This document shows, piece by piece, positions 1-10,722 of a stretch of DNA of 64,000 bases; position 1 is the stretch's first letter, and each line of letters opens with the position of its first letter. A program made the translations under genes and the position numbers. The DNA comes from Falciphora oryzae (taxonomy: Eukaryota > Ascomycota > Sordariomycetes > Magnaporthales > Magnaporthaceae): the NCBI GenBank assembly GCA_000733355.1, contig JNVV01000012.1, positions 10,851 to 74,850 of the forward strand, given 5' to 3'. Below the pieces are notes generated by a model, which worked only from the letters and a program-made list of their open reading frames with translations, did not search any database and had not been told where the DNA came from.

Positions 1-157
1 GTCTGCAGGCACGCGCCGCTGGCCGCGTCCCAGATCTTGACGGTTTCGTCGTGCGACCCGGAAGCGATGCGGCGGCCGTCGGGCGAGAACGCGACCGAGT
101 TGACGTAGCCGCCGTGGCCCTCGAGCGTCTGCAGGCACGCGCCGCTGTGCGCGTCCC
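1..157 (-). repeat. Near-identical 126-bp WD40 repeat units (edge of array)
   Basis: The 20-bp string at positions 1-20 recurs identically at 127-146, giving a 126-bp (42-residue) period that codes for one WD40 blade on the minus strand. Only one full unit and the start of another are in the window. High identity between units is characteristic of fungal HNWD/HET-E type NLRs, whose repeats diversify by unequal exchange and hypermutation. Confidence 0.85.
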
Positions 158-3100
158 AATCATTTTCCATCACTGGCTCGGTTGTAATCCATTTTCGCAC
201 TTCGTGCTGGAATAGCCCCTTTATAACACTGCGTGATGGGCTGAATATAAGTGCTGAACCGTATGTTTGGAGGGGCTTGTTTTCGATTACTCCTTTGTGG
301 TATAGAATGAATCGGTGCGCATCGCGGACCAAATCGCTTAATCCAGATGCTCCTGCTCGCCCCTACAGTGGAGTTAGGACAGTATTTAGAAGTAGTAACA
401 GCTAGAACATACCTGTAGCAAGCGCTCGAGTTTTTGTACCGACATGATCCCTTCGGTCATGCTTCGGAGAAGGCTGAGTGCCTCGAGCCAGTAGAGATAT
501 CGGTTTCGGAGGAACGTATCGACGGCGCCGCCGTCCTGGAGGTCTTCGCATAGTTTAGGCGTCATTGCGCTCCCCTTACGATAATGTTAGAAACTGCGTT
601 AAATGGTATTATAAAAGGGCTTACCTGAAATAAAGCGCCGAGTTTCACGCTCTCTTCCAGGTGGTCTACCCAATAAATACACGAATAACCTGCTGCCGCT
701 AACGGATCTGGCTTCGGCTGCTTGGCCTGGTCGATGGGAGTTCCAGGGGCGCGCAGGTCGTACATATCGCGCCGTAGCGTTTTTTCCATAACATGCAGTA
801 ATTGCGTGAAGATGGCCCGGTGGACAGCTGCAGAACCAGAGGGGAAGATGGTTGGGGCGGCCTTTCCAACCAGGTAGTCCTTGGCAGACTGATGCACGAA
901 GTAGATAGTGCCGTCGCGAATTGTAAGGAAGGAGCCGCTCTTTTTAACAATCTTCTCAATGTTGTTGACGTTGCTGGAAATCGCGCCTGGAAGTCCGGAC
1001 ACTGCGCCTAGCTCAAGCAGCCGAAGTGGGCGGTAGGCCAGCGTGGCCGCCGAGAGGACCAGCCGACAGTACTCTGTAAGTTTGTTCGCTGGTCGTTCAA
1101 CCTGGTCTATCATCCGCGCATACAGATCATCAAGACCTTTTGGTACGTCGTCGACCACCTGCCGCACCTCCCAGGGTTCAACGGCTTCGACTTCCTGGAC
1201 GACAAGGGCCACCCAGAGGAACGTTCCCTCGGCTTTCCTACGGAGGACCTGTCGAACATGGTCCTGCAGTGAACGGTCGTTTTGCAGAGATTGGATTTGC
1301 GATGTCCTGTTGGCAATGTAAGCTTCGATGGCCTGAGAGACGGAATTTGCGTTCTGCTGCAATTCCAGGCTAAGGATCGATTGCGATGTTTCGAGCCGTG
1401 TACGTTGCTCGATGCTGTTCCGGCTAGAAATGATCCACTTGACGCGCGGCAAATTCGCTTCCTGGAGAACGAACTTTAAAAGCTTGTCTTGGTCCTGCAC
1501 GCATTCGTCGAGAGCGTCAATTATGACGATGATCTTTTTCAGGCTCGGATCACGCAGGATACTCAAGAACATGTAGCACAGAGTAGGCCATGCTTCCGCA
1601 TCCCCAAAAAGCGGCTCCCCTGTATCCTTGAATTTGTCTTCCACGTGCGAGCGAAAGGACGGCTGCTGCTTCACGACCATATAGATCAGACCGCGCAGGA
1701 CAGCATGAGCGTTGCTGAGCTTGGGGACGGTGGCTTTGCAGAAGAAGAAGGACAGAAGCGTCTTGGCTTCGGTGTTTGCCAGTTTCGTGGTAGGGCGTAG
1801 CTGGTCGATGATGCCACAGAGCAGCATAGTCTTGCCCTTGCCGGGATCGCCCTTGATCCAAAGCAGCCGGCTGTCTTCGTCGTCGCGCCAATGTTGGTAG
1901 TCGGGATGGTCGAGGATCCAGCGGTATGACGCCTCGAGGACGGCGCCTCTTGTCTGATGGATGCGCGTCCGGACGTCGTGCGGATCAGTCTCTCCGATGT
2001 AGTCGAGGAAGCGATCTCTGCGGATCCGTTCCGCCAATGGCAGGATCTCGTCTTCCGACGCCGCAGAGTCTGCAACAGTGGAATCGTCCCCAGAAGGTGC
2101 AGGAACTAAATCCTGGTCATAGTTGACGTCTTCCCGTTTCGATTGAAAAGCCCGGAGTTCGGAAACGGTGAGGCTTTCCAGGTACCGTTGACCCCGTGAC
2201 AGGTCCTCCTGCAACGCATCCAGTGTCCGCAGGTCCTCATGCAACGCATCCAGTGTCCGCAGGTCCTCATGCAACGCATCCAGTGTCCGCTCGTCCTCCG
2301 GGTTTTCCGTATCTTGGCGCACTAGCTTAATGTTGACGTCATTGATCATGGACAATATGTTTCCCAGATATGCGAGGTGAGGTGCGATCTCGGGATCTAA
2401 CGCGTAGCCGGAGCTGTAAGCTAGTTGGCAAAAATCACGCAAGTCGTACGTCGACTTAAGAAGATGACTTAGAACCAGAGTTGTACGAGCGGACGCCGAC
2501 TTAGGAAGATGACTTGAAACCAGAGTGGTACGAGATCCATCTTCACATCTCAATCTTGAGTAGAATTCTTCTTGCGTACACCCCGCAATAACCGCGGTAA
2601 GAAGCTCGTTCAAGTCGAAGGAGTCCTTCCATTCAACGTGCTTTCCCGGGGCATCGCTGTCCGTGTCTTCGGCTAGAGGCGCGGGCTGCTGGTCGCTCGA
2701 CCCCGCGGAGGCCCTGGTATCGTCGTCTTTGCCGATGGTTTCCCACGGCAGCGCCTCGATCGCGAAGGAGTGCAGGTGGTCGGCGATGTGCGCGTCCGCC
2801 TCGGGCTGCTTCAGGGCCGTCCTGTCGTGGCAGAGCGGGCACGGGATAGGCGGGATCCCGGTCCTCCGGCTTGCCTCGGCGAGGGCCGGCAGGTCCTCCT
2901 CCCCGAACTCGCCTCGGTGGCTCTCTATGGTATGCTGGCGCCACCCGTCTTCGTCCTCGAACTCGTACCGGCCCGGCTCGTCCGAGTCAATCCAGCAGGC
3001 GTCGCAGATCCAGCGCGGCGCGCTGTGGCAGTCTTTGAGGTGTTTCTTCCAGTCACCAGTCGTCACGTACATGGCTTCTGCGACCGGCTTGGGACAGGGG

Positions 3101-5254
3101 GCATATGGGCACACGTAGGGACTCAGGTCTTCGGCAACGTGGCGACTGCGAACTTGTCAGGCGTAGGCGTTGTGGGATGACTGGGGACATAAGCTGGAGA
3201 CTTACCGCCAGCTCTCAGAATTCTTATCTTTCGGGTCGGAATAGGAGGGATCGAGGAGCTGAGCACAGAACGGGCACCAAAAGTGTTCGCGTTCTGCACC
3301 GGGACACTTCGGATAGTTTTGCCGGAGAAACCCTTGCGAGCCCCTCGTGCCGACCGACTTTGTCTCCGTGGCATGGGCTCTGGTGGGCATGACAAAACTT
3401 GGCGACACCGTCTGGTCTCGCTCCGAGGAGAAGATGGACCTACTAACGGCACTAGGCTCCTGCCGTTGCAGTGTTTTTGTTTGCGATGTCATATTCGGGT
3501 CCTGTCTTTCGGCTTTGGGTTGGACAGAAGCGGGTAAACTACTACCCGTACTTGGAGCTCTCGGTGGCGTCTTGGCCCCTGCACCAGCCGCAGAATCAAT
3601 CGTGGTTGCCGACTGTGCTGCGTTCTGCTTCCCGAGGTATTGCCCGAAGTACACGTCGAATCGGTTCCGGCGGATCAGATTCGCCTCGATGAGTCTTGCC
3701 TGGATCGCGCTGAGCCTCTTCGGCTTCGTCAGCCGTGCCCACAAGTCCTCGTGGGTCCGTTTCTCTGCTGGGAAATCACTGCGGAAATTCCAATTGAACA
3801 GGTCGAGCTGAAGAGGCCCGACGAGAATGAGGAGCGTGAGGAATTTCCGGAAACCTTCGAGCTTGTCTGCTCTCTGAGCCAGAACCTTGTCGGCTTTGTT
3901 ATGTCGGAATTTCGTGCCGTGCTTCCTAACTGCCGCGGAGATCCGGACGAGATATTCCATTGCGGCTTCGATGTAATAATACTGATCGCCGAGCTTTGAG
4001 CGAGGCTGTTGAGCCAGTTGATAGACCGCGGTGTTCGCTGATTCTGTCTCTTTCTGCTTGCCTTTTGGCTTGGGCCGCTCGGGAACATCGGGTACGTGCA
4101 GTGCCTGGTCGATATCGGCCTGTGCTGCGCTCGCTGTTGATCGGGTCCCAGTTAGCATGACTTCCGGGCTAGCCGAGAATAGATCGGTCGAAACTGCCAA
4201 ATTTAAGCTTACCGATTTTGATACAGTTCCGCAGGGATATAGCCAAGCTGTCCAGGAGCCCAGTAAGGATGCTCCGTACGTCATCACGAACCCTGACGCG
4301 GTAGTCCAGCGAGGAACGACCACTCCTTTTAGCGCCGATACCAAGCGACCACCAGTTAAACTTGGCGGACATTTGGTCCATCCAGTCCAATCCAGTCAGG
4401 ACCGGGTACTTCTGACACTCTCGGAACAGCGCTTGACAATCTGCCGTCTTGTCTCGGATGGCCCCCGGGTTCTTCGTGTATCCCTGTGGCTCTGACCAGT
4501 CGGTATCTGTTTTCTGGTCCTTCTTGCCCCGGTTTTCGAGCGGCTTATCGGCATCAGGGCCGCCGACACCCTCTGCCACGTCATCTCGTCGGAGCAGCGA
4601 CTTGTGGAAGGTCCGCAGAAGCGGCCCTTCCGGCTGGCCGTCTTCGCCCTTACCCGATGTTCGCGTGGCCGATGCTTGCGATGCAAACGCCATGAGAATC
4701 GCCACCCAACGGTCGCCTCCGAAGTCGAGTAGAATGCCCCCATCATGTGAGATAGCATTTTCGGGCCGAAAGAATCCGGTGCCGCCCTGATTCATGTGGA
4801 TGTTGTAGACAAAGCCGTCGCCCAGAGATCCAAAAACGTACGCGACAGCCTTGCGCTCAACCGCAAGATTGAAAACCTCGCCGAGTTTGTCAAAGATATC
4901 TGGAGATTTCTCTGTCTTGTCGCGAGCCGCTTGTACAACGATCGACTCGTTGAACGCGATCAGATTTCCTCGGAGAAAGTCCAGGGCTGGGACTTGGCCC
5001 TCTGATTTTAAGTGAGCCCCCGGTGCGAGAGGCTGTAGTTGGCTCAGCAGGGCAGATGGGTCGAAGCGTCTGTCAAGCCAGCAGAGCAGCTCCGAGCCTT
5101 GACATGGTGATCTGACGTTGACTCCGGCGGCAGTTTGATGAGCGCCGCCGGCCCCGACAAGCAGCAACTCTGCGTGGCAGTCCTCGGAACCATCCGGCGG
5201 AGGCTCCCATGATACGGGGTATCCTTTGAAGACGCCGTATTGTGGTACAGGCAT
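1..5254 (-). CDS. DUF2278-NACHT-WD40 NLR (STAND) protein, C-terminus beyond the window
   Basis: Exons read on the minus strand are 5254-4213, 4133-3206, 3145-625, 574-413 and 362-1 (open), all phase-consistent with GT-AG ends. Residues about 2-205 match DUF2278 (YukJ-like): a VPQYGVFKG start, [14 protein letters not shown] and DGGILLDF motifs. A fungal linker follows (FNWWSLGIG near residue 300), then paired CxxC/H clusters ([25 protein letters not shown]). The NACHT P-loop GDPGKGKT lies near residue 1090 and a [11 protein letters not shown] element follows it. Then come WD40 repeats of the [14 protein letters not shown] type. More than 1,650 residues are in the window. Known for the family: NLRs sense a ligand through the repeats, oligomerise through NACHT and trigger an N-terminal effector. 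Inferred: an incompatibility or immunity receptor. An unusual point is DUF2278 in the effector position. The start ATG at 5254 opens directly into the DUF2278 motif. The gene is divergent from the gasdermin-like gene. Confidence 0.85.
2201..2290 (-). repeat. 30-bp tandem repeat, three units, inside the NLR
   Basis: Three consecutive 30-bp units (2201-2230, 2231-2260, 2261-2290) are almost identical. They encode a 10-residue [10 protein letters not shown] motif between the zinc-finger-like region and the NACHT domain. The period is a multiple of three, so copy number can change without breaking the frame. Confidence 0.9.
2453..2535 (-). repeat. 45-bp imperfect tandem duplication inside the NLR
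   Basis: Two copies with a 45-bp period start at 2453 and 2498. They encode the 15-residue units [15 protein letters not shown] and [15 protein letters not shown]. The copies have diverged slightly and keep the reading frame. Confidence 0.8.
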
Positions 5255-6173
5255 CGCAATTTATTCGCAAATCATGGGCTTTTGATCGCGGGTCGTATTA
5301 TGCGGTGAGCTAAGCGGCATTTTAGAGGTAAGGTTAGGCTATCCCGACAACCCCGCAACAGCAGCCCAATTACTTTGTGCGGACTAAAAGCGTCTCGCAC
5401 GAATCGGCCCTCCGGGGATTAGTGCGGCGGGGCAATCTGTCGTTTTCGGGGCAATCTGTTGTTTTCGGGGCAATCTGTCGTTTTTTTGGGACATACTTTC
5501 CCACACAAATTCGCAGTGATTCGATGTTCCCTCGCATTAGCACGTGCCACGCCCAATCCGCATCCATCCGCGGGCAGCGAGCCCTCTCTGAGGCACAACC
5601 AAAGCCAGGCGCGCATTTACGAGCCGGCGTGCTTGCGCATTTGTTAGCTGTGCTTTAGTGAATTGATTGCTGTTATTTGTAATGAGGTAGATTTGGCTGG
5701 GCGGGTTGCGCGCTGATGCGAGGGTACATTGATTCACGGCTAATTTTATATGGGAAATAATGTCCCAAAAAAACGACAGATTGCCCCGCCGCACTCTATC
5801 CCCAAAGGGCCGATCGAGTGCGTGGCGCTTTTAGCCCGCACAAGTATGCTAACAAATCTTTTTCAGGCAGCTGTTCTAAAGTAACTGCAGCGAGTATATG
5901 CACAAAGCGGGGCTGCTGAGGCAGGAGATTGTGTGATCCTGTGCGCTATACAACAACGACTAATGACACCGGGGCTCGAGACGCGGACTTGCATTGAGCT
6001 GAACAGGATGCTAGCCGGCTCGCCCAAACGAGCATGCCAGTCGTGCACGGGCGGTGTCCCCCTCCAGTTGGGCTGGGAGGCTCTCTGGTGTGAATCTCCA
6101 AAACAGCAGCATCACGTCCTTGATCAACTACACATAACCCGGTAGCCGAACAGGAAGCCCGCCCGCTATCAAA
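5255..6173. promoter_or_regulatory. Divergent intergenic region between the NLR and gasdermin-like genes
   Basis: This 919-bp stretch separates two divergent genes and must hold both promoters. Its middle is occupied by the inverted-repeat element at 5373-5844. No further coding region or motif was recognised. Confidence 0.6.
5373..5844. mobile_element. MITE-like element with long imperfect terminal inverted repeats
   Basis: The left end reads CTTTGTGCGGACTAAAAGCG and the right end, read inward on the opposite strand, reads CTTGTGCGGGCTAAAAGCG. The similarity continues for roughly 150-170 bp per arm, including a shared GGCAATCTGTCG block, TGGGACAT and CCCTCGCAT. TA flanks both sides (5371-5372 and 5845-5846), consistent with a Tc1/mariner-type target duplication. 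The left arm carries three tandem copies of a roughly 20-bp unit containing GGCAATCTGT; the right arm has one. There is no transposase, so it would be non-autonomous. It sits between the NLR and gasdermin-like start codons. Confidence 0.65.
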
Positions 6174-7280
6174 ATGGACACGTGCTGGTACCCCCTCAAG
6201 CAGACCCACTACCTCGCGCCCGAGTACGTGCACGCGAGCATGGCGTATGGCAAGGCTGAGGGCGACCTCCTCATCGGCCACTTCCTTCCGGGGCCGCGGA
6301 AGATCGACAACGTGATCAACCTGGGCGGCGTGACGCCGTTCCCGCGGGACATGCGCATCAAGTCGCAGAACGTCGTCAACTTCCGCTACGCCCGGAAATC
6401 GAAGAGGTCGGGCGAGGTCGGGGTCGACGCCGGCGCGCCCCCGGCCCCCGGGGTCCCCGTCGAGGTGACGGTCGACGCCGGCACCATGTTCCGCCGGCAC
6501 ATGGGCGACAGCTGGGCCATCAAGCGGCTCGAGTCGCAGATCGTGCAGCCCACGCCCGCCTACTTCGAGCTCTGCCGCAATTCGGCCCAGCTGGCCTCGC
6601 ACATCGCCAACAAGACGCTCGGCGCCTGGACCGTCTACATGATCAGCGGCCTGATGATCGCGCGCGGCGCCAAGAACGAGGGGTCCGAGGGCAGGAAGAT
6701 GAGCGCCCATGGCGGCGGCGGCGTGTGAGTGAGCCCCGTACCACTGGCACTCCCTGATTAAATCTACCCACGTCCTGCCGTTCGACACCGTGTTTCATAC
6801 CTCGATAGCCTCAGCTGACGCTTGCAACGTATCACCAGGGACGCGGCCAGTGTGGCCAAGGCAAAACTGAAGGCCAAGTACGCCGCCGAGGACGAGACCG
6901 AGATGTCGAGAGAGTTCACAAACGACTTCGTCTGGGCTATCCGCCTGACCAAGGTGTGGAAGGGCCTCTTCGACAAGGAGGTGCGGAACGAGCCGCACAC
7001 GAAGGGGTCAGTCTTCGCGCCCGGCTCGGACGCCGTCGACGTCGATGCGTTCCTGGCGGGCGAGGGACTGGCTGCGGACGACGTGGAGGCTTTCGAGGTG
7101 ACATTGGAGGGCTTGGACAAGCCGCAACTCTTCGTCGAGGTGGGTGACAAGCCGGAACAGCCGGAGCCGGAGCCGGCTGCCGCAGAGGCGGCTGCTGCGG
7201 AACCGGCTACCACGGAGCCGGTTGCCACGAAAGCAACTGCCACAGAGCCGGCTGCCTCAGAGACAGTCGGCGCTGAGTAG
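6174..7280 (+). CDS. Fungal gasdermin-like pore-forming protein (HET-Q1/RCD-1 type)
   Basis: Exons 6174-6724 and 6839-7280 join in phase (donor GTGAGT, acceptor CACCAG) to give 330 residues. The N-terminal half shows the pattern I associate with fungal gasdermins: LAPEYVHAS, GDLLIGHFLPGP (residues 30-41), IDNVINLGG, PFPRDM, and later QPTPAYF and LGAWTVYMISGLMIARG. Known for the family: the N-terminal domain oligomerises and permeabilises the plasma membrane after a protease removes a short inhibitory C-terminus, as with HET-Q1 and HET-Q2 in Podospora. After about residue 285 the protein ends in a roughly 45-residue low-complexity tail rich in Pro, Ala, Glu and Thr. The protein is longer than HET-Q1 as I recall it (about 280 residues). 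The convergent subtilisin-like gene 285 bp downstream supports the call. The start ATG follows an AAA context. Confidence 0.75.
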
Positions 7281-7565
7281 TTGCATCCTAGACCTCCGAT
7301 GTAGACCTACATCGGCGGTCCACGTCGATTACAACGTAGTTGCGTCGGGGTGACGAGTGCGTTATACTACTAGGTGCTATGGAGTTTCACTGGCAATCTT
7401 TTACACAGCAGTGAAAATGAAACTATATCCCCGCGAACTATTCGAGTCCCACTACGTACTTATTATCTTCATAAGCCATTCAAGTCCCATTACATACTAC
7501 GTGATGTCCTAAAATCATCCCATCATTGATTTATGGAGAAGTCTTGTAACGGATCATGTTGTTGT
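7281..7565. other. Short convergent spacer between the gasdermin-like and protease genes
   Basis: This AT-rich 285-bp spacer lies between two convergent stop codons and should hold both polyadenylation regions. CATTCAAGTCCCATTACATACTACG (7480s) partly repeats TATTCGAGTCCCACTACGTACT (7440s), a degenerate direct repeat. Confidence 0.5.
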
Positions 7566-10500
7566 TCAACGGGGCACAAACCAACCGTCGATGCCGAACG
7601 AGATCAACGCGCATATTTCCCTCCGCGCCCTCTCCTTGACCTCCCCGCTGGGCAGTTTCGACCCGAAGGGAAGCCGCACGCGCAGGTCTTTTTCCAGCAG
7701 GCCCCACGGGCGGATGCAGTGGTACGACCCGTCCTTGTGTGCGAGCGACAGCAGGACGTCAGTCATGTTGCGCTTCCTCTTCATCTTGTCGGCCTTGGCG
7801 CCGAGGATGCCGCGGGCGTCGGCGTGGCGCGAGAAGTCGAGCAGGCGGGCGGCGAAGCCGGCGGCGAGGGCGGTCGAGAAGGACGTGCCGGACCGGACGG
7901 CGCCGTCCGGCAGCGTCCGGATGTTCTCGCCTAGCATGGCGAGGTTGTGCTTGGCGATGCCCTCGGACGGGTTCAGGTGCGGCGACTCCCTGACGTACCC
8001 GGTCGTGGAGAACATGCAGAAGACGTGCGTCTCGTAGCGCGCCGGGAAGGCCAGCTCGCCAGCGTTGCCCTCGTTGGTAGGCGCCGCGAAGAGGAGCATG
8101 GTCCGGGACGCCTCCTCGACCTTGCGGTACAGCTTCTCGTCGTCGTCCTTGAAGAAGCCGCAGGCCATGCAGACGATGTCCATTTTTTCCTTAATACACC
8201 AGTTTAGGGCCTATGTTCGCGACCTGTTAGTAACATTATTACCATGACGAATGGTATAAGCAGGTAGTAGGTACTTCAATGGTTAGCGCCTGAGTGTTCG
8301 GGCTCGCCTCGTCCTGCTCAAAGACCCTGATGGCGTGCACCTCGGCCGACTCGCACATGTCGTAGATAAGGCTCAGCGACGTGGTGCCGTGTCCCGTGTT
8401 GTCAAGTTTCTCATCGTTATTCCTTGTCACCAGATCGATGTAGCCGCCGAGGAAATCGGCCACATCCGCGCTCTTCTTGACGCCGGTGTCGATAACGGCG
8501 ACCTTAACCCTCTCATAAGCCTCTGCAGGCGCGGCAGTGAGGATGTAGTTGAGACTCGCCACGCGGTCCATCCAGTGCTCGGTCGACGCCGAGTCGGTGC
8601 TGTCAGGCGACAGAATGGGTAAGTGTCCAAAGGCGCAGCTCGCGCCGGGAATGGGAATGGCACATACACTTGAGACATGGTGCGTCCGCTCCGTATTTCC
8701 CTCCCCGGGTTCAGCAGCGCGCCGTCGGTGGCCTGGCGCGCTGCGGGCGTGGGGGCCGCCGCCGACCCGAGCCGTTTTGAGTCTGAGCTGTCGGCTAGAT
8801 TTAACGGCATGATATTGTGGGGGTTCCACTCGGAGATCCAGGCCTCCAGCTGGCTCACCGAGTCGCACAGCACCCTGCAGATGCCCTCGTCGCTCAGGTC
8901 AGTGTGGGGCGGCATGAAAACGTCTTCCGGCTTGATGCAGTTAGTGATGAGATCGCGCAGGGGATCTGATATCTCAAGCTCCGCGTCCAGAAGAAACTTA
9001 TGCTTCTCGATGAGGTCCTTGCAGATGTAGTAATTGGTGTGTCTGTTCGGCTTCCCGCCGGGGCAGTGGTGCGTGAATCGCTCGTCCTGATATAGGCTTT
9101 CGATGGGCTGTCCCCTCTGTATTTCCATGAGCATGATTCCGAGGCCGAGTATCTTGGGTATCCGGTGGGTTGGCCGGAGGAAAAATGGCTTTCTGCCAGT
9201 TGCTGTCCCCAACTTCGAGCTCGGCTTCTCCGAGCTCGCTGCTTCCTTGTCGGGTATTGGAACTGAGATAGACAAGAGCGGTTCGTTCACAAATATGCCG
9301 CGGATTCCGTCGCCTTGGTTGTTTTGTCTCCTTTCGCAAATGAAGTGAACTATGTCTTTCGTCCACGGCGACAGCATCCAGGGGGATGCGTAGTATTGCC
9401 AAACCGCTTTTGCCAGGACTGTCGAAAGGATGCCTTTCTGCTTGGACGACAACCATTGAAGTGTGGTTTCTTTCGTCTTCTTCACGGTCGAGTCCTTTTT
9501 GGCGGCCTCTTGCAAAAGCTGACGAAGGGAGATGCTGCGCTCGTTGAGTTCCCACTTCCTGGGCAACTTGTCGGCCTCGCAAATCAGGCGGTCCGGGTGG
9601 TAATACAGCTTTAGTCTGAAGACTGAGAAATATAAAAGCATCGGTCCTGCGTCTTCGTGATCTTGGGACGAAATATGCTCGCAAAAGCTCTGCTCAGGGC
9701 CGAAGCCGATCTCTTCTACTTGGTCAGGCGCTTCGTCGTCAGGAGTTCTAGCTAGCCTATCAATATCGAGCTAGTAGTCAGCTTGACGCAGTCTTTGTCC
9801 TCTTCCGTGAGCCGGAGGGACCTACACCTTGCCCCGTACGGAAATGTCCGTATCCTGCCACCACGGCTGAATTTTCGGGTCGGTGGTATCTTGATGCGGG
9901 TGAGCCAAGAAAAGCACTCCGAAGGTGACGCCGTATTTATCGCGACAGCCGCTGTTCAGCCTGATACGGGCCGCCACGTCGAGATGGGGCTCCTCCGGTG
10001 TGCAGAAGCAAATACTCGCCAGGGCCCTGTGGAGAGCTGTGATTTGGTTCCCGCACTCTGTCGGCTTTTCACCTACCGATTGCACGGCAGCGGTGGACGG
10101 CGCTGGCAATACGAAGTTGTCGCTTGACGCTGGGAAGATGGCGCTGAGCTGAGCGATAGTCATCCGCTTGTTTAGTTGGCCCTCGGTGCTGTCGTCGCTA
10201 GCAATGTCAAGAATTGTCTGTTTTGCACTCGTGGGGTCTGTTAAGAGCAACTCGAGGGCTGGATACGGCGAACTGGGCCCAGGCGGTGCCACAGCAGCCT
10301 CCTCCGGGTCTGGTCGGTTTGACGGGTTGGGTGGTTGCGGTGGCTATATGATTTAATGTCAGTCGCAGCTGCCTGACAGCAAGGCAATCTGTAGGGCATG
10401 CGATTCCGGATATGCGACGGACCTGACATAGATCATTCAGCAGTTGCAGCAGCGCACAAGATACGGGATGCCCCTCGGGACAGCCATCATCAGGCAGGTT

Positions 10501-10722
10501 GAAATCTGGGAGCCTTTGTAGAATATCGAAGAGTGCTGATTGCAGAAGGGCGCTGAACTGGCCGCAAGCAGGATCCTGCAGTTCGCACAGAGACCGTGCG
10601 ATCTCGTGGACGCGCTTAGCCGCCTCGAAGGCGAAATTCGGCGGGGTTAGCTTGTGCATTGAGATGCCCGCTCCTCGGCAGCCGCTCCGAACTTTACCCA
10701 GGAGAGCTGTCGCATCTGCCAT
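7566..10722 (-). CDS. DUF7580-subtilisin (S8) protease, HET-Q2-like candidate
   Basis: Exons read on the minus strand are 10722-10423, 10343-9828, 9770-8668, 8599-8275 and 8210-7566; all join in phase to about 962 residues. The N-terminal 500 or so residues resemble fungal DUF7580: LHRALASICFC, VLFLAHPH, PWWQDTDI, ISLRQLLQ, and ILGLGIMLMEI. The C-terminal peptidase has a complete triad: Asp in VAVIDTGV (about 677), His in NTGHGTT (about 710) and Ser in SGTSFSTALAAG (about 858), with the oxyanion Asn in APTNEGN (about 794). There is no signal peptide, so it should act in the cytosol. The ATG at 10722 (MADATALLGK) was chosen; the open frame continues upstream without another ATG, so an upstream exon is possible. 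Known for the family: HET-Q2, a subtilisin-like protease, activates gasdermin HET-Q1. The donor at exon 1 (GTCCGT) is weak. Confidence 0.8.

Follow-up and report, generated by a model that had tools for sequence, protein, structure and literature searches.

A gasdermin gene of Falciphora oryzae lies beside a DUF7580-subtilase gene and a NACHT-WD40 receptor gene in a gene trio that recurs across the genome

We analyzed a 64,000-nucleotide stretch of the genome of the fungus Falciphora oryzae (the window hereafter; C12:10851-74850 on contig JNVV01000012.1 of an assembly that totals 50.2 Mb over 123 contigs) and concentrated on its first 10,722 positions, which hold three genes: a gasdermin gene on the + strand and, on the − strand, a protease gene and a gene for a receptor of the NOD-like receptor (NLR) type. 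The gasdermin and protease genes are convergent, with stop codons 285 bp apart, and the receptor and gasdermin genes are divergent, with starts 919 bp apart. A first-pass annotation of this DNA had described a gasdermin-like gene at 6174-7280, a convergent protease with a full subtilisin triad at 7566-10722 and a divergent NACHT-WD40 NLR at 1-5254, and had suggested that the three form a sensor, protease and pore-former circuit. The first two descriptions proved correct. That of the NLR was right in location, orientation and domains and left unnamed two further parts of the protein, an N-terminal DUF2278 domain and the module described below.

The gasdermin gene consists of two exons (6174..6724 and 6839..7280, + strand) flanking a 114-bp GT-AG intron (6725..6838; GTGAGT...CACCAG) and encodes a protein of 330 amino acids. 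The intron junction preserves the reading frame, and the alignment of full-length relatives spans it. A phmmer search of PDB sequences matched the protein to Neurospora crassa RCD-1-2 (E 6.8e-30, residues 4-226) and RCD-1-1 (E 1.5e-28, residues 1-228). Database searching added 15 relatives, several of them partial; the full-length ones share 45-51% identity across about 80-86% of the query, with one exception at 37%. Since no Pfam family was found for exon 1, the identification draws on the RCD-1 match and the 15 relatives. Judged by these similarities, the protein belongs to the fungal gasdermins, in the RCD-1/HET-Q1 family. The second exon encodes the C-terminal region, which includes F243 in the motif KGSVFAP and ends in a tail rich in A, E, P and T; the aligned full-length relatives stop near residue 265-293, and the window protein continues with this tail. 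For published gasdermin systems we relied on excerpts of five papers, reviews among them (PMC12881547, PMC10197012, PMC9815663, PMC11138114 and PMC10989679). According to these excerpts, the S8 protease HET-Q2 cleaves HET-Q1 near F238 of its 278 residues, and by analogy of position F243 likely marks the cleavage region of the window protein.

The protease gene (7566..10722, − strand) has about five exons and about four introns (exons 10722-10423, 10343-9840 or 9828, 9770-8668 or 8677, 8599-8275 and 8210-7566). Several introns have alternative ends that shift a few residues; the preferred model encodes 958 amino acids. Pfam searches of the exons returned only two families, DUF7580 (PF24476; 8928..9605, − strand; 3.3e-14, residues 56-281 of the open reading frame 8427-9770) and Peptidase_S8 (PF00082). 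The subtilase part (7566..8599, − strand) contains an intron at 8211-8274, and in single-exon searches the S8 family scored 3.7e-7 in the last exon and 0.02, below the cut-off, in the preceding one; homologs carry the whole domain. The catalytic triad is complete, with Asp673 in DTG (8488-8490), His706 in GHGT (8389-8391) and Ser854 in SGTS (7881-7883), all on the − strand. In a 12-sequence alignment, in which the piece from the window begins after the Asp and His columns, the catalytic Ser is invariant, and conservation in the Asp and His columns is 90% or more. A database search with residues 300-959 from a 962-residue model variant gave as closest relatives DUF7580-S8 proteins of Cercophora, Apiospora, Gaeumannomyces and Clarireedia, the first five of which show 46-48% identity. 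No sensor repeats were detected in the exons by Pfam; NACHT and WD40 are encoded by the separate receptor gene. The parallel with HET-Q2 in the first-pass annotation needs one correction: rather than a bare HET-Q2, the encoded protein is DUF7580 fused to S8, and no repeats were detected in it.

The receptor gene (3..5254, − strand) is open at the window edge. Its five exons in the window (5254-4213, 4133-3206, 3145-625, 535-413 and 362-3, the last running to the window end) give 1658 amino acids readable without a stop, in the order DUF2278, helical region, Cys/His-finger motifs, NPHP3_N/NACHT and WD40. The DUF2278 domain (PF10042; 4658..5254, − strand; 2.3e-37) scores 129.3 bits against a Pfam cut-off of 25 and covers profile positions 1-203 of 206. 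The helical and Cys/His-finger region (2566..4492, − strand; residues ~255-850, with introns 4134-4212 and 3146-3205 inside it) is common to other gene clusters of this genome, and we call it the module. It is followed by the NTPase domain (PF24883; 1420..1926, − strand; NPHP3_N 7.3e-35, NACHT 1.3e-14) and the start of the WD40 repeats (PF00400; 3..143, − strand; 1.8e-15, cut by the window edge). Within the NTPase, we take GDPGKGKT to be the Walker A motif and an 11-residue segment to be Walker B-like. With its central NACHT-type NTPase and C-terminal WD40 repeats, the predicted protein bears the marks of an NLR, or signal transduction ATPase with numerous domains (STAND). Because the contig left of the window (C12:1-10850) is given as N all the way to the WD40 repeats, the WD40 end is unreadable and the repeats cannot be counted. 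The fusion of DUF2278 to the module is real, since DUF2278 and the beginning of the helical region lie in one open frame and since a Clarireedia protein (P0016) aligns to residues 1-847 of the receptor at 49% identity.

DUF2278 is otherwise widespread in prokaryotes, where at least 513 of 592 scanned stretches encode relatives, 80 of which were kept. Over 39 sequences, its invariant residues include H27, H153, N155, Q156, D171 and Q193. The predicted structure of the domain is of good quality (predicted template modelling score, pTM, 0.82) but gave no firm structural match and has a weakly OB-like look, and the literature searched contained no mention of "DUF2278". One further DUF2278 locus lies in this genome, on contig C34.

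The trio of the window recurs elsewhere in the assembly. The genome searches scored only the best candidates, and all totals given here are lower bounds. We counted at least 17 gasdermins, 15 of them from two genome-wide searches and those on C41 and C31 from local profiles; a gasdermin-like match at C59:90416 (57 residues, E 0.0014, one stop) was left out of the count. An S8 match by Pfam lies within 2.5 kb of 14 of the 15 genome-wide gasdermins, and S8-like segments occur some 2.5 kb from the remaining one; S8 matches also adjoin the gasdermins of C41 and C31. Fifteen of the 17 gasdermin loci cluster with both an S8 gene and a module gene. These trios, put together by hand from the search coordinates, are at C12 (the window), C58:97-104k, C58:107-118k, C58:118-124k, C7, C15, C98, C17:82-90k, C17:565-572k, C40, C2, C41, C27, C31 and C52. 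The module of C27 and the gasdermins of C41 and C31 came from reading flanks, so that they are counted among the 15 of 17 and stand outside the 20 module loci and 15 gasdermins of the genome-wide searches; the C31 gasdermin is weak (~3e-5) and sits beside a run of N, and the module there matches at 2.2e-19. Counted from the protease side, there are at least 17 DUF7580-S8 loci (18 rows merged to 16, plus C58:90k found by tblastn), 14 of which have an adjoining module gene; the exceptions are C9, C58:90k and C2:46.9k, the last with its flank unread. The arrangement within a cluster varies. At C15, C98, C17:82-90k and C2, receptor and protease form a head-to-head pair and the gasdermin lies on the far side of the protease; in the window and at C58:107-118k and C58:118-124k, the head-to-head partner of the receptor is the gasdermin. 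Contig C58 carries an island of ~67-124 kb with four gasdermins (90.2k, 102.9k, 113.6k and 119.6k), the one at 90.2k with an in-frame TAG, and four module loci (67.7k, 97-99k, 110-113k and 118.6-119.2k).

We then asked which part of the receptor accounts for the linkage. The module was searched for genome-wide with three pieces, namely that of the window, one of C15 and one of C58:97k, a locus that had itself first come to light through a local profile run on a flanking stretch. At least 20 module loci emerged; 17 lie within 5 kb of a DUF7580 match and 18 within 5 kb of a DUF7580 or S8 match (16 of 18 with the window locus and C58:97k left out), and the share of the genome within that distance is about 1.4%. 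As a control we used NLR genes with NPHP3_N, taking the best 150 of 206 candidates, which gave 145 places after five second pieces were dropped. Only two of the 145 lie within 5 kb of DUF7580 and seven within 10 kb, and three lie within 5 kb of DUF7580 or S8. Four of the 145, that of the window included, lie within 3 kb of a module match and are probably module receptors themselves. We accordingly dropped the notion of a general association between NACHT NLRs and gasdermins. Also, none of the 15 NB-ARC matches of the genome search lies near the trios, as judged by eye. Since 18 of 20 module loci and only 3 of 145 control places adjoin DUF7580 or S8, it is the module, not the NPHP3_N type of NLR at large, that tracks these genes. 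The proposal that a linked NLR is the third part of the system thus needs amending: the third gene does recur, but its constant part is the module and not the NLR as such.

The same figures bear on whether the receptor belongs to the system at all. In the published model, as given in the excerpts, the gasdermin cluster comprises two genes and the sensor is carried by the protease protein. The window gasdermin and protease might likewise be a self-sufficient pair, sensing through DUF7580 or the protease N-terminus, and the receptor an independent immunity gene of the same island. The four gasdermins and four module loci of C58 do form such an island, and no module was detected by some pairs (C58:90k and C17:545k). 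An island effect should, however, draw in NLRs generally, which the control places do not bear out, and the linkage survives altered gene order and orientation on many contigs and in other fungi. We therefore regard a self-sufficient pair as unlikely.

What follows the module differs between receptors. We read the sensor ends of seven of the 15 trios, that is, the window and six others, taking as sensor the domain encoded downstream of the module in one continuous open frame. The window has NACHT-WD40; C7, C58:97k and C98 have ankyrin repeats (C98 being cut by the contig end); C17:87k has NPHP3_N plus ankyrin; and C15 has tetratricopeptide repeats (TPR). In the receptor at C58:107643-111722 (− strand), a caspase-type Peptidase_C14 domain (1e-11) replaces the repeats, and a gasdermin and an S8 protease adjoin it.

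The partner of DUF7580 may differ as well. Five module loci adjoin DUF7580 genes with no S8 match detected, and at two of them we read the DUF7580 gene. At C15:461-465k, this gene (C15:462464-465199, − strand) encodes a fusion of DUF7580 with a PNP_UDP_1 phosphorylase domain (1.2e-11) and lies about 3 kb from a module receptor; the 4.3 kb read there contain neither a gasdermin nor an S8 match. In the DUF7580 gene on C67, no second domain was recognised. These two loci suggest that the module and DUF7580 are a constant signalling pair. A broader picture would be that fungi own a modular, inflammasome-like platform, in which module receptors with exchangeable sensors address DUF7580 proteins with exchangeable effectors, either a subtilase that fires a gasdermin or a PNP/UDP phosphorylase, with some 15 gasdermin-armed copies in one genome. 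We put this forward as a tentative idea that may well turn out too broad.

Linkage in other fungi was judged by the locus tags and contig sizes of protein records. In Clarireedia jacksonii, ACMFMG_006025 is a gasdermin, 006026 a DUF7580-S8 protein and 006028 a DUF2278-NPHP3_N-WD40 protein of 2059 amino acids; tag 006027 was not seen, and the gasdermin record is on two contigs, the longest of which differs in size from the contig of the protease and receptor. In Gaeumannomyces hyphopodioides, the protease (RB595_010493) and a DUF2278-module-WD40 receptor (010495) are two tags apart. No Gaeumannomyces protein is among the 15 database relatives of the gasdermin, and no NACHT is among the best 25 of 51 families for that receptor. 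Apiospora sp. TS-2023a has the gasdermin and protease at neighbouring tags (016384 and 016383), and in Thozetella their records are on contigs of equal size (68,829). In Cercophora newfieldiana, gasdermin, protease and module receptor are all on contigs of equal size (4,541,189 bases); the receptor record there begins inside the module and is without DUF2278. Sensor ends of NB-ARC plus TPR occur in Cercophora (P0022) and Fusarium (P0019). Neither of the two outcomes that the first-pass annotation had named as refuting its proposal came about: the 330-residue protein matches fungal gasdermins in sequence searches, and the three genes co-occur in other clusters of the F. oryzae genome and, by locus tag, in Clarireedia.

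The distances between Cercophora and the C58:118-124k trio are 0.15, 0.13 and 0.15 across the three families, near-equal as expected of a unit. Across 11 sets (nine of the 15 trios of this genome plus Cercophora and Clarireedia), pairwise distances correlate at 0.67 between gasdermin and S8, 0.60 between gasdermin and module and 0.29 between S8 and module (permutation p 0.0002, 0.0004 and 0.04, respectively).

Gene content, protein families, intact catalytic residues and the recurrence of the trio were seen directly. On these grounds we consider it reasonably probable that the trio works as one lytic cell-death circuit with the receptor upstream. The receptor would sense a cue via its variable end, here NACHT plus WD40; the helical and Cys/His-finger module would relay the signal to DUF7580 of the neighbouring protein; this would free the fused subtilase, which would cut the gasdermin in its C-terminal region, likely around F243; and the N-terminal domain of the gasdermin would form pores in the plasma membrane. 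Linkage and modular exchange point to the links from sensor to module to DUF7580-S8, and homology to characterized gasdermins suggests the cleavage and pore steps. An immune or incompatibility role of the trio may likewise be supposed. Of the circuit suggested in the first-pass annotation, the linked trio is thus supported, and the direction from sensor to protease to pore is the presumed part.

Several observations weigh against this reading. Module and DUF7580 are found together without the rest: five module loci (C58:67k, C55, C67, C32 and C15:467k) adjoin DUF7580 with no S8 or gasdermin detected, that on C32 at 6.2 kb, and a weak module match on C30 has neither DUF7580 nor S8 on its contig. 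No module was detected beside the gasdermins at C58:90k and C17:545k (the latter covered by the genome-wide searches, with flanks unread) or beside the DUF7580-S8 gene on C9, whose flanks were read. The gasdermin calls at C40, C2, C17:571k and C31 have E values of only 1.6e-5 to 7.7e-5, and the C58:118-124k trio has a frame change near the gasdermin C-terminus (119.6k) and a shortened receptor (118.6-119.2k). The module also occurs in Fusarium (P0019-P0021), in records that do not show gene neighbourhoods. The clusters may duplicate as units, and the linkage counts are not independent trials, because clusters may share ancestry; the distance correlation, too, leans on one clade (window, C58:118-124k, Cercophora and Clarireedia). 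Finally, the putative cleavage site of the gasdermin was placed by its position relative to F238 of HET-Q1.

The sign of the regulation is a separate matter, as linkage alone does not give it. The receptor could restrain the protease as a guard or safety catch, so that its loss or change releases the protease and kills the cell. The review excerpts do propose that het-Q1/het-Q2 arose by a rearrangement that left a constitutively active sensor. Nothing observed in this analysis favours inhibition, and the C58:118-124k cluster, which keeps a partial module and a protease gene, is undecisive on this point given the frame change in its gasdermin; restraint seems to us rather improbable. As for the purpose of the circuit, RCD-1, HET-Q1 and several NLRs are known fungal incompatibility genes, according to the same excerpts, and the locus could primarily serve allorecognition, as a het locus whose receptor, protease or gasdermin alleles come into conflict once hyphae have fused, and not antimicrobial defence. 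Such a use is compatible with the same molecular circuit, and we give it little credence as the primary role.

According to the excerpted reviews, a protease gene accompanies about 80% of fungal gasdermin genes in a cluster, and for about 60-63% of them it is an S8 protease. Some proteases are fused to NLRs or repeats in a "contracted" pathway; fusions of kinase-like domains to gasdermin-controlling proteases are also mentioned. The window resembles HET-Q1/HET-Q2 of Podospora anserina in that a fungal gasdermin lies beside an S8 subtilase, and by this analogy proteolytic activation would be expected. HET-Q2, however, has 388 amino acids as against the ~958-residue DUF7580-S8 fusion, and HET-Q1/HET-Q2 is described as a two-gene system, to which the window adds a separate linked receptor gene. 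The Q2-like (Q2L) proteases with WD40, TPR or ankyrin repeats or NLR domains share with the window an S8 protease beside a gasdermin, and sensor repeats and an NLR within the cluster. In the Q2L designs covered by the excerpts the sensor is fused to the protease, whereas in the window sensor and protease are separate genes. RCD-1 of N. crassa provides the closest solved structure by sequence. It acts by the meeting of two allelic variants without cleavage, as one excerpt has it, and the window gasdermin differs from it by about 100 extra C-terminal residues, the last forty or so making up the A/E/P/T-rich tail. If the proposed circuit is right, the trio would also resemble the mammalian inflammasome (NLR, caspase-1 and gasdermin D) in having separate sensor, protease and pore-former. 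It would differ in having a subtilase in place of a caspase, a different module and linked genes, and common descent of the circuit is without support.

PMC12881547 speaks in general terms of "two- or three-gene clusters", and the sole worked three-gene case in its excerpt is amyloid. A separate recurrent sensor gene is not described in the excerpts of PMC12881547, PMC10197012, PMC9815663, PMC11138114 and PMC10989679. The gasdermin-S8 pair was already known, and the separate recurrent sensor gene with its conserved module looks new, a provisional statement because the founding study by Clave et al. 2022 lay outside the literature compared. A 2025 review holds that protease control upstream of fungal gasdermins needs future research and that the stimuli of the sensors are a major open question. 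A sensor gene that stands apart, recurs and shares its module with others is a testable candidate for the control of gasdermin-activating proteases. If that is true, fungi would have separate sensor, protease and pore-former as linked genes, in contrast with the fused sensor-protease design described so far, and the trio may be what corresponds in fungi to the inflammasome of animals.

Much of the space between the receptor and gasdermin genes is occupied by an inverted-repeat element resembling a miniature inverted-repeat transposable element (window 5375-5843), whose arms are complementary at 88-100%. Eight further copies in the genome match at least 390 of the 491 bases used as the query, and other contigs hold many fragments of the element (96 matches, with the best 40 of 48 candidates scored).

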